Below are positions 6,010 through 60,768 of a DNA stretch of 64,000 nucleotides, one piece after another (the first letter of the stretch is position 1; every line of letters begins with the position of its first letter). This stretch comes from Microbacterium sp. KUDC0406 (GTDB lineage: Bacteria > Actinomycetota > Actinomycetes > Actinomycetales > Microbacteriaceae). The stretch lies in assembly GCF_021582875.1 (NCBI RefSeq), contig NZ_CP091138.1, forward strand, positions 1,736,001-1,800,000, read 5' to 3'. The translations under genes and the position numbers were made by a program. The notes under the pieces are model-generated. The model saw only the letters and a list, made by a program, of their open reading frames with translations, was not told the origin of the DNA and did no database searches.

Positions 6010-8897
6010 TCAGGCGAACGCCTCGATCGGCGGGCACGCGCACACGAGGTTGCGGTCGCCCCAGGCGTTGTCGATGCGGCGCACCGGGGGCCAGTACTTG
6101 GTCGAGATCTGCGCGTGCACCGGGTAGGCCGCCTGCTCACGCGTGTAGGCGTGCGTCCAGTCGCCCGCGATCAGCGAGGCCGCGGTGTGCGGCGCGTTCA
6201 CCAGCGGGTTGTCATCGGCCGGCCAGGTGCCGGCCGCGACAGCGTCCGCCTCGGCCTTGATCATGATCATCGCCTCGATGAACCGCTCGATCTCGCCCAG
6301 GTCCTCGGACTCCGTCGGCTCGACCATCAGCGTGCCCGCGACCGGGAACGACATGGTGGGCGCGTGGAAGCCGTAGTCGATGAGACGCTTGGCGACGTCG
6401 TCGACGGTGATCCCGGTGGCCTCCTTGAGCGGGCGCAGATCCAGGATGCACTCGTGCGCGACCCGGCCGTTCTCACCGGTGTACAGCACCGGGTAGTGGT
6501 CGGCCAGGCGCGCGGCGATGTAGTTGGCGGAGAGCACCGCCACGGCTGTCGCCTCGCGAAGGCCGGCCGCGCCCATCATCCGCACGTACGCCCACGAGAT
6601 CGGAAGCACGCCGGCGGAGCCGTACGGTGCGCCGGAGACCGGGCCGCCCGCGAAGACGAATCCGCCCGCATGCGCGTCCTTCTGCGCCTGCGGGTGTCCC
6701 GGCAGGTGCGGCGCGAGATGCGCCTTGGCCGCCACAGGCCCGATGCCCGGTCCGCCGCCGCCGTGCGGGATCGCGAACGTCTTGTGCAGGTTGAGGTGCG
6801 ACACGTCGCCGCCCAGGTCGCCGAACCGCGCGTAGCCGAGCAGGGCGTTGAGGTTCGCGCCGTCGACGTACACCTGACCGCCGGCCGCGTGCACGGCCGC
6901 CGTGATCTCGGTGACCTGCTCCTCGTACACGCCGTGCGTGGACGGGTAGGTGATCATCAGCGCGGCGAGCTCGGCGGCGTTCGCCTCGATCTTCGCGCGG
7001 AGGTCGTCGAGGTCGACGTTGCCGAGCTCGTCGGTCGCCACGACGACGACCTTCATGCCGGCGAGCACGGCGGATGCCGCGTTCGTGCCGTGCGCGGACG
7101 ACGGGATGAGGCACACCGTGCGGTGCTCCTCGCCGTTCGCAAGGTGGTAGCCGCGGATCGCGAGCAGCCCCGCGAGCTCGCCCTGCGAGCCGGCGTTCGG
7201 CTGAAGCGAGACCGCGTCGTACCCGGTCACCTCGGCGAGCCACGTCTCGAGCTGGTCGATCATCTGGAGCGACCCCTCGACGTCCGCGCGCGGGGCGAAC
7301 GGGTGCAGCTGGGCGAACTCCGGCCAGGTGATGGCCGCCATCTCGGTCGCCGCGTTGAGCTTCATCGTGCAGGACCCCAGCGGGATCATGCCGCGGTCGA
7401 GCGCGTAGTCACGGTCGGCGAGCTGCTTCAGGTACCGCATCATGGCGGTCTCCGAACGGTGCGCGTGGAACACCGGATGCGTGAGGTACTCGTCCTCGCG
7501 CAGCAGGGCGTCGGGAAGGGCGTGTGCGGGCAGGAATCCGAACGATCGGACACCGCCCTCCTGCGCCCGGCTGAACGCGGCGACGGTGCGGAAGACGTCC
7601 TCGAGCGTCGTAGTCTCGTCGACGGAGACGCCGACGGTGTCTTCGTCCACCAGCCGCAGCAGCGTGCCGAACTCATCGTGCGCGCGCTCGACGATCGCCG
7701 CCGCCCGTCCGGGGACCCGCACCGAGAGAGTGTCGAAGAACTCGCGGTGCACGAGTTCGGCGCCCTCCTTCTCCAGCTCCGTGCCGAGGAAGCGGGCGGT
7801 CGCACCAACGCGGGACGCGATGTGGCGCAGCCCGTCCGGGCCGTGATAGACGGCGTACATCGAGGCGATCACGGCCAGCAGCACCTGCGCGGTGCAGATG
7901 TTCGAGGTGGCCTTCTCACGGCGGATGTGCTGCTCGCGGGTCTGCAGCGCCAGCCGGTACGCGGGGTAGCCGGAGGCATCCTGCGAGACGCCGACGAGGC
8001 GGCCGGGCAGCTGGCGCTCCAGACCCGTGCGCACCGCCATGTAGCCGGCGTGCGGGCCGCCGAACGCCATCGGCACGCCGAAGCGCTGGGTCGTGCCCAC
8101 CGCCACATCGGCGCCGAGCGAGCCGGGCGAGCGCAGCAGCGTCAGCGCGAGCAGATCGGCGGCGACCACCGCGAGGCCGCCCGCGATGTGCGCCGCGTCG
8201 ATCACGGCACTCGGGTCGGCGACCCGGCCCGACGCACCCGGGTACTGGACGAAGACGCCGAACAGCTCGTCGGGCAGCTCTTCGCCGGCGGCGAAGTCCC
8301 GCTCCATGAGCTGGATGCCGACCGCCTCGGCGCGGGTGTGCAGCAGCGCCTTGGTCTGCGGCAGCGCATCGGCGTCGACGACGAAGACCGGGACTTCGTC
8401 TTCGACGCACGACGCGCGAGCAGCATGCCCTCGGCGACCGCCGTGGACTCGTCGAGCATCGATGCGTTGGCGGTCTGGAGCCCGGTGAGGTCGGACACCA
8501 TGGTCTGGAAGTTGATCAGCGCCTCCAGGCGACCCTGCGAGATCTCCGGCTGGTACGGCGTGTACGCCGTGTACCAGGACGGGTTCTCCAGCACGTTGCG
8601 CTGGATCACGCTGGGAGTGATGGTGCCGTAGTAGCCGAGCCCGATCATGGCCCGGTTCACGGTGTTGCGGCTCGCGAGTGCGCGCAGCTCGACGAGAGCC
8701 TCGGCCTCGCTCGCGGCGACGGGGATGACGGTCTCCCCGGGCTGCGTGAAGATCGAGCCCGGCACGGCCTGGCGCATCAGCACATCGATCGGGTCGTCCT
8801 GGGTTCCTGAGCCCGTCGAAGGGACGCCGAGGGCATCGAGCATCCGCCCCCGGTCACCGGCGTCCGGCCCGATGTGGCGGTCGGCGAACGAGACCAT
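6010..8897 (-). pseudogene. gcvP: Glycine dehydrogenase (decarboxylating), P-protein; one-base frameshift
   Basis: GcvP is the PLP-dependent P-protein that decarboxylates glycine and passes the aminomethyl group to the lipoate of GcvH. The ATG at 8897 starts the normal N-terminus ([20 protein letters not shown]). The frame breaks at 8390-8392, where a CCC run (minus strand) appears one C short; adding it restores [20 protein letters not shown] and a continuous 962-residue protein. The PLP-lysine motif NLHKTF and the glycine-rich GGGGPGIGP loop are intact in the C-terminal half. Gene order gcvT-gcvH-gcvP with ATGA overlaps is canonical. Both parts are well conserved, so a sequence error is more likely than a dead gene. 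Confidence 0.9.
8802..8823. repeat. Dispersed TTCGACGGGCTCAGG-type repeat inside gcvP
   Basis: The core (minus strand TTCGACGGGCTCAGGAACC) is in frame near the N-terminus of GcvP and encodes the low-complexity peptide VPSTGSGTQ, which looks like an insert in a surface loop. A related copy lies in the glycine riboswitch at 10464-10486. Confidence 0.65.
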
Positions 8898-9274
8898 CAG
8901 GCCCCCGTGATGGCGACGTAGCCGTCGCGGTCGAGCAGGCCGTCGAGGGCGCCGTCGGCGACCTCGACCTTGATCAGCCAGGCATCCTCGAACGGCGACG
9001 AGTTCAGCAGCGCAGGGTCGTCGACGACGCCGTCGTTGATCTCGGTGACGGTGCCAGAGACGGGAGCGTAGAGCTCGGAGACCGACTTGGTCGACTCGGC
9101 CTCGCCGAACACGTCGCCGCGGCTCAGCTCGGTGCCGACGGCCGGCAGCTCCACGAAGACGATGTCGCCGAGCGCGTCAGCGGCGAAGTCGGTGATGCCG
9201 ACGGTCGCGACGGCGCCCTCGAGGGCGACCCACTCGTGCTCTTCGCTGTACTTGAGGGTGGTCAGATCGGTCAT
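8897..9274 (-). CDS. gcvH: Glycine cleavage system H protein
   Basis: The 125-residue lipoyl carrier shuttles the aminomethyl intermediate between the P, T and L proteins. The lipoylation motif [12 protein letters not shown] places the modified lysine at about residue 63, within the usual hammerhead beta fold. Length matches the family (about 125-130 residues). Its ATG overlaps the gcvT stop and its stop overlaps the gcvP ATG, so the three genes are tightly coupled. Confidence 0.96.
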
Positions 9275-59263: not shown

Positions 59264-59489
59264 GGGTCCGAGTCTATCCGTCGGGGCCTGTGAAGAGGGC
59301 CGGGAGAGCGGGCCTCCCGGGTCTGCGGGGAGTCCAGCACGGGAGGGACATCTGCACGATCCGGGAACGGACGCACGACCGGATCGCGGGTTCGGCCGTG
59401 CATCCGTTCCGCGATCGTGCAGCCGTACCAGCAAACCCGGGCCGGCTGACGACCGCTCGGTGTCGGCACCGGGTGCGAGAATCGATGCG

Positions 59490-60768
59490 ATGACCGTCTT
59501 CGAAGCAGCCGCCGTCCCCGGCGAAGCGCCTCCGCCCGATTCCGTCGCGCCGCGGGAATCGTCGGCGGACGCGCCGACGTCGGTGGCCCGGCTCAACGCG
59601 ACGATCCGCGACTTCGTCGCCCAATGGGGCACGGTGTGGGTCGAAGGCGAGATCACCTCATGGAACCTCCGTGCGGGCAACGTGTTCGCCCGCATGAAGG
59701 ACAGTCGCTCCGAGGCGCAGATCTCGCTGCGCATCTGGTCGAAGGTGCGCGCCCGCATCCCCGCCGACCTCGGCGTCGGCGATCACGTGATCGCCGCGGT
59801 CAAGGCGGACTACTTCGTCAAAGCCGGCGACTTCAGCTTCCAGGTCTCGACGATGAAGCACGTCGGGCTGGGCGATCAGCTCGAGCGTCTCGAGAAGCTG
59901 CGCGCACAGCTGCGCGCCGAGGGGCTGTTCGACCCGGCCCGCAAGAAGCCGCTGCCGTTCCTGCCGCACGGGATCGGTCTGATCACCGGCGAGAGGTCCG
60001 ATGCCGAGAAGGACGTGCACCGCAATGCCGAGCTGCGCTGGCCGCAGGTGCGCTTCCGCACCGAGTACGCCGCGGTGCAGGGCGACCGGTGCGTGCCCGA
60101 CACGCTCGCCGCGCTGAAGCGGCTGGACGACGACCCCGACGTCGACGTGATCATCATCGCCCGCGGAGGCGGCGACCCGCAGACGCTGCTCGGGTTCAGC
60201 GACGAGCGGCTGGTTCGGGCGGTGGCCGTCGGCATCCACGCCGATCGTGAGCGCGATCGGTCACGAGAACGACCATCCGCTGCTCGACGACGTCGCCGAC
60301 CTGCGCGCGTCGACCCCGACGGATGCCGCGAAGCGGGTCGTCCCCGATGTCGGAGAGCAGCGGGCTGTGATCGCTCAGCTGCGCTCCCGCGCGACCAGCC
60401 GCCTCACGCAGCGCGTGTCGCACGACCTCGCCCAGCTCGCCCAGCTGAGGTCGCGCCCGGTGCTGCGCTCCCCCGATCCGATCATCGACTCCCGGGCGCA
60501 GGAAGTGCTGCTGCTGTCCGCGCGCGGACGCGACACGGTCATCCGCCGGCTGGATGCCGCGAGCCGGACCACGTCCGAGCTGCGGGCTTCGCTGCGCGCG
60601 CTGTCGCCCGCCGCCACGCTCGCCCGGGGCTACGCGATCGCCCACCTCGCGGACGGCGCGATTCTGCGGGATGCCGCCGATGCTCCCGCAGGCACCGCAC
60701 TCACGATCACCGTCGACCGCGGATCGGTCGCCGCGCACTCCGACGGCGAGATCCCCGAGAACTCCTGA
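59490..60768 (+). pseudogene. xseA: Exodeoxyribonuclease VII large subunit; one-base frameshift
   Basis: The N-terminal OB fold ([23 protein letters not shown]) and catalytic domain (PFLPHGIGLITGERSDAEKDV, VDVIIIARGGGDPQTLLGFSDERLVRAVA) are intact. An extra G near 60228 shifts the frame; without it the chain continues SASTPIVSAIGHENDHPLLDDVADLRASTPTDAA, giving about 425 residues. ATG at 59490 lies 7 bases after GAGAAT. The small subunit gene xseB follows after a repeat array. Confidence 0.9.

Follow-up and report, generated by a model that had tools for sequence, protein, structure and literature searches.

Are the many single-base frameshifts in the sequence of Microbacterium sp. KUDC0406 present in the organism, or are they faults of its assembly? 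The question is raised by a stretch of 64,000 nucleotides (assembly GCF_021582875.1, contig NZ_CP091138.1, positions 1,736,001 to 1,800,000; hereafter the window), in which an earlier note, made without database searches, had claimed at least thirteen such breaks, one of them in ispH. The source genome consists of one contig of 3.61 Mb with a completeness of 96.1%, and its gcvP shares 75–83% DNA identity with that of 38 genomes of the same genus. We report that the frameshifts almost certainly stem from misreading in a long-read genome left unpolished, and that most of the extra bases among them gather at one hexamer, CCGCGG.

Frameshifts in the window and across the genome

Breaks were detected in two ways. 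A codon-frame hidden Markov model (HMM) recorded frame switches in 864 kb of this genome, a sampled quarter, and in 720 kb of relatives. Independently of the HMM, predicted proteins of same-genus relatives were aligned to the window by tblastn, and a homology break was called where a relative's protein aligned on both sides of a site, in two frames. The homology search covered 38.8 kb of the window and 63.5 kb of five other 20-kb stretches of this genome, and the shifts were counted modulo three to separate extra-base from missing-base breaks.

Eight homology breaks were found in the covered part of the window and nine elsewhere, that is, 17 in 102 kb, whereas six relatives tested against each other gave 1 in 494 kb (p about 1e-12 for the difference). 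A chance origin of the breaks is excluded, and with a break roughly every 6 kb of conserved coding DNA the gene calls in this assembly are unreliable. Among the 17, the break at L034 5350 is weakly based (a single relative, with 46% identity on one side), and those at L025 8772, L025 9795 and L028 19480 are each based on one relative. The HMM left 124 unexplained switches in this genome (14.4 per 100 kb) versus 13 in the relatives (1.8 per 100 kb); these counts contain gene boundaries, such as L021 9402 (9386 in the site test described below) and L026 16246, each of which separates two different genes.

Twelve of the 14 positions named in the earlier note were supported. Intact proteins of same-genus relatives (2 to 6 of 6 relatives each) confirmed eight of them, namely gcvP, two ATP-binding cassette (ABC) transporter ATPases, nadB, nadC, nadS, ispH and xseA. 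Profile halves supported the S66 peptidase and ehuC (55668), and reading frames supported the VOC (46324) and LysR (42555) breaks. Support thus falls one short of the claimed minimum of thirteen: the break near 38021 was not confirmed and that at 56191 is no more than plausible. Eight of the 14 sites carry the word CCGNCGG, in which a single base splits CCGCGG at its centre. The breaks are as follows.

8390..8405 (about 8397), minus strand: gcvP; missing base, no G/C run of 4 nearby; GcvP of 5 relatives, shift -1
10921..10927 (10924), minus strand: ABC transporter ATPase; extra base at CCGNCGG; 8 proteins from 6 relative genomes, shift +1
12376..12382 (12379), minus strand: second ABC ATPase; extra base at CCGNCGG; 2 relatives, shift +1
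19174..19180 (about 19170 by homology), plus strand: nadB; extra base at CCGNCGG; 4 relatives, shift +1 in 3 and +4 in 1
20815..20828 (20822), plus strand: nadC; missing base beside a run of five G; 6 relatives, shift -1
21646..21652 (about 21652), plus strand: nadS, as named in the earlier note; extra base at CCGNCGG; 4 relatives, shift +1
37990..38262, minus strand: hypothetical gene, break claimed near 38021; unconfirmed
38909..38915, plus strand: S66 peptidase; extra base at CCGNCGG; PF02016 positions 1-61, then 65-121 of 121 in another frame
42545..42565 (42555), minus strand: LysR regulator; near a run of five C
46315..46335 (46324), plus strand: VOC/glyoxalase; near CCGCGGGG; Glyoxalase positions 6-43 of 121 upstream
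55665..55671 (55668), plus strand: ehuC; extra base at CCGNCGG; frame score 53 for +1; BPD_transp_1 resumes downstream at profile position 33
56185..56205 (56191), plus strand: possible break where ehuC meets ehuD; run of four G adjacent; HMM switch
58785..58791 (58784 by homology), minus strand: ispH; extra base at CCGNCGG; 5 relatives, shift +1; NF002189 positions 10-142, then 146-323
60226..60232 (60228), plus strand: xseA; extra base at CCGNCGG; 5 relatives, shift +1; TIGR00237 positions 1-216, then 221-387

In the LysR regulator, the LysR_substrate match ends at position 190 of 209 and a LysR-like tail follows in another frame. Just downstream of the VOC break, 'VRDPDGNLILFG', which we take to be a VOC C-terminus, is read in a different frame. 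Near 38021, the coding signal stops at 38020, the profile search gave no family match, and reading the frames showed no clear second frame. At 56191, a separate BPD_transp_1 domain lies on each side, and the ehuC frame extends approximately 114 nt into ehuD. At most breaks, protein identity was high to either side; relatives align on both sides of eight window sites.

Two classes of break and the word CCGCGG

The 17 homology breaks comprised 10 extra-base and 7 missing-base breaks. CCGNCGG occurred within 25 nt of 9 of the 10 extra-base breaks, with exact placement not possible at L034 5350, and of none of the 7 missing-base breaks; the frequency in random windows was 8.5%. At these extra-base breaks, comparison with relatives and the reading frame indicate CCGCGG as the true word. 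An unbiased search of k-mers and gapped 3N3 words at the HMM frame switches returned the same word. CCGNCGG ranked first at extra-base switches, both in a first set (23 of 37) and in the enlarged set from 864 kb (40 of 58, with 3.75 expected; p 4e-34). At missing-base switches the leading words were GGGG and CGGGG, and a G/C run of at least 4 lay within 20 nt of 44 of the 66 switches versus 21% of background windows, although only 3 of the 7 homology-proved missing-base breaks had such a run. The earlier remark that several breaks lie in G or C runs therefore fits much of the missing-base class, but not the extra-base class, most of which falls at a non-homopolymer hexamer.

Each CCGNCGG site was also tested for its frame. 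In this genome, 42 of the 971 coding sites showed a +1 shift, a further 714 sites with too little coding signal being left aside; these 42 sites correspond to 35 separate places, and some are neighbours of one break. Of the coding sites of eleven other words in this genome, between 0 and 1.5% gave +1. With approximately 700 intact coding CCGCGG sites, roughly 5% of such sites (about one in twenty) are affected. The added base, read on the plus strand at the 42 sites, was C in 16, G in 13, T in 8 and A in 5, and A was enriched at flank position +2 (25 sites). No depletion of CCGCGG was seen, the word occurring 1.36 times per kb in the window and 1.55 in the first sample as compared with 1.26 to 1.90 in six relatives.

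An Eco29kI-like restriction–modification pair

The mark set by the Eco29kI methylase is 5-methylcytosine. Eco29kI cuts CCGC^GG (PMC1952068), and its methylase is reported to modify the second C of CCGCGG (PMC3039593). A search of the genome for C5 methylases (PF00145) detected one locus, with a score of 173.2 bits, approximately 1.04 Mb away from the window. The methylase frame (L159:7638-8849) comes first and overlaps the next gene (8840-9448) by 10 bp. The overlapping gene encodes a protein of the RE_Eco29kI family (PF09517; 228.8 bits against a cut-off of 30.8, E 4e-68) that matches the solved Eco29kI structure in PDB (E 2e-40). The alignment to Eco29kI retains GVYA-YY, PIYVGKA and RIREHG, and WN downstream, residues that probably correspond to the published catalytic ones. 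PADLOC models assigned the pair to MTase_II and REase_II. That a methylase like that of Eco29kI or its isoschizomer SacII, with a PF09517 neighbour, would be present had been predicted from the error word once the single C5-methylase locus was known but before its neighbours were read, and PF09517 was found in only 2 of the 398 genomes of the family searched, this one included. CCGCGG is the predicted target of this host's methylase, by homology only, and the error word lends indirect support to this specificity. If the mark is set as in the known system, the inserted base would stand between the two marked positions of the palindrome.

The restriction–modification (R-M) pair lies within L159:7638-13794 (G000:C1:2838638-2844794), near a tyrosine integrase and small genes, three of which were tested and had no Pfam match. 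The GC content of this region is 63% versus 68% for the 16-kb stretch, and there is no CCGCGG inside it. The region may be an acquired island.

Control genomes and ribosomal RNA

A plain sequence-context error, at homopolymers and GC-rich words, could in principle account for all breaks and would make the link between CCGCGG and the R-M pair a coincidence. The G/C runs at missing-base breaks are in keeping with it, as are errors linked to GGCC in two Pseudomonas aeruginosa isolates, for which no methylation motif was reported to be consistently explanatory (PMC12345217). Control genomes bear on this explanation. At CCGNCGG, the frame test gave +1 at 1 of 754 coding sites in the six relatives and at 0 of 294 in G054, a single-contig genome of the same family with a completeness of 86% and no PF09517 match. 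The listing of genomes without PF09517 names G041 and G054 and none of the other relatives. G054 is even richer in breaks than this genome (28.7 per 100 kb over 240 kb), and 58 of its 69 switches are missing-base, 46 of these 58 with a G/C run. Only 1 of its 11 extra-base switches lies near CCGNCGG, though CCGCGG occurs just as often in G054 (1.7 per kb). Thus, the word CCGCGG alone does not seem error-prone, being about as common in the relatives and in G054, where the effect was not seen. Since, in addition, the extra-base breaks favour a non-homopolymer word, and a rare R-M family known to target this word is present here, we regard context error as the sole cause as unlikely.

The gene calls of G054 are likely to be as unreliable as those studied here, as it carries very many missing-base frameshifts, mostly near G/C runs. 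The three ribosomal RNA (rRNA) operons of the KUDC0406 genome differ by 1.1 to 2.3% among themselves versus 0.2% between the two of G041. Within runs that relatives conserve, the single-base rRNA indels away from the leader, at alignment columns 2185 and 5558, are common to all three copies and are not decisive.

Breaks in essential genes

Extra-base breaks at CCGNCGG were also found in genes outside the window, where the two halves of a protein profile match in succession: rpoA (1-48, then 52-321), rpsB (1-62, then 66-302), tsf (1-99, then 106-273), frr (3-117, then 122-176) and purL (1-373, then 385-722). In murF, a profile match was obtained on one side only of such a break. The rpsB, tsf and frr breaks all lie within 3 kb of one another. 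For IspH (PF02401), only one locus was found in this genome, in two pieces, whereas 18 of 19 relatives carry it in a single piece without stops; the remaining one (G015) gave no match. The genes rpoA, rpsB, tsf and frr are held to be universally essential, and a cell with such lesions is not viable. Because these four genes are cut in the same way as ispH, no living cell could really carry these breaks.

This bears directly on two biological explanations. In the first, the insertions at CCGCGG would be real scars: the Eco29kI-like endonuclease would cleave the chromosome of its host, and repair by Ku-dependent end joining would add a base and so destroy the site. An endonuclease gene and Ku (PF02735) are indeed present, and the added base varies. 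Nevertheless, a single clone would have to bear such scars in rpoA, rpsB, tsf, frr and ispH, the last at the only locus found; most coding sites are intact, and there is also an independent class of missing-base breaks. As a general account, self-restriction was rejected on the ground that genes held essential are cut, and we consider it extremely unlikely. In the second, the lineage would be in genome decay or would use programmed frameshifting. Many genes are broken, as this explanation would have it, but housekeeping genes are hit, essential genes (rpoA, rpsB, tsf, frr and ispH) are not spared as they would be in pseudogene decay, IspH is intact in nearly all relatives searched, and at most breaks the flanking protein segments keep a high identity. 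As for programmed frameshifting, what the sites of frame loss share is one hexamer that recurs in unrelated genes, not a slip site conserved within a single gene, and no shift conserved in orthologues was found, the relatives carrying single open frames over the breaks. We give this explanation almost no weight, in agreement with the earlier view that a tolerant lineage or programmed slippage was the less likely cause. The attribution to uncorrected sequencing error was borne out by the spread of the breaks over the genome, by the intact genes of relatives and by the same kind of cut in ispH and in the four genes held to be universally essential.

Apart from the breaks, the window contains a glycine riboswitch aptamer (RF00504, 59.7 bits; 10545-10638, minus strand) upstream of the minus-strand gcv genes.

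Discussion

We hold it highly probable that the sequence is an uncorrected long-read consensus with two classes of error, in which the extra bases arose at host-methylated CCGCGG misread in a nanopore-type assembly. The missing-base errors, which favour G/C runs, would be the usual long-read fault. CCGCGG would be methylated on both strands by the organism's own Eco29kI-like system, and a basecaller without training on this mark would place an additional base between the methylated positions, turning the word into CCGNCGG. The breaks, their rate in the sampled quarter of the genome, the two classes, the word, the gene pair and the controls are shown directly. The methylation of CCGCGG in this organism, the nanopore platform and the way in which the basecaller errs are what we infer here.

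Several observations weigh against methylated CCGCGG as the source of the extra bases. Approximately 95% of coding CCGCGG sites were correctly read; the error is thus not decided by methylation alone, and context may matter. The CCGCGG of the 16S rRNA 530 loop was likewise read correctly in the 3 copies found. CCGNCGG was lacking at 18 of the 58 extra-base switches and at L022 14413, a homology-proved extra-base break, and at least one of the 35 places of the frame test, L021 9386, is a gene boundary with no break. G054 lacks the extra-base CCGCGG class, which could reflect a different platform. The second genome with PF09517, G050, showed no such break in 160 kb, where sites are few (0.43 per kb) and the frame model was built from 15 open reading frames; with its 30 contigs, G050 may be a short-read assembly. 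The GGCC-linked errors in P. aeruginosa cited above point the same way. A bias of the added base towards pyrimidines on the plus strand, considered as proof of an artefact and seen at first in 20 of 25 cases (one of two L025 entries being spurious), fell to 24 of 42 once more sites were included and was dropped.

The case is of an ordinary kind, an uncorrected long-read consensus error; its informative part is the extra-base class, most likely an imprint of CCGCGG methylation. A false biological claim, that of a lineage tolerating broken essential genes, is thereby removed, and assembly faults become a testable statement on this organism's methylation, given that the errors name one hexamer and the genome encodes a pair of the matching R-M family. 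A broader proposition, that the frameshifts of deposited long-read assemblies bear in their spectrum a readable imprint of active DNA methylation, in which the extra-base word names the methylase specificity without raw signal, seems to us about evenly poised between true and false. If it were general, public long-read assemblies could be mined for methylase specificities.

Comparison with known systems

Homopolymer indels of unpolished long-read assemblies resemble the missing-base breaks at G/C runs, which are common also to G054, but would cover at most the missing-base class, 66 of the 124 switches here. In assemblies made with R9.4.1 data from three strains of a GC-rich actinobacterium, 1410 to 7639 bp differences and a completeness down to approximately 82% were reported (PMC11649196). 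Insertions at CCGCGG were not described in the titles and abstract openings covered by a literature search. The closest parallel is provided by nanopore errors at the Dcm motif (CCAGG/CCTGG) in Klebsiella pneumoniae, which made up approximately 70% of consensus errors with the then-current Oxford Nanopore Technologies (ONT) basecallers (PMC6591954). Those errors gather at a host methylation word, as would be the case in the present genome, with homopolymers as a second class; here, in contrast, the word is CCGCGG, the error is a one-base, frame-breaking insertion, and it was recognized from a finished assembly alone. The predicted pair and the Eco29kI system are alike in having a PF09517 GIY-YIG endonuclease beside a C5 methylase, and the motif implied by the errors is the Eco29kI site.

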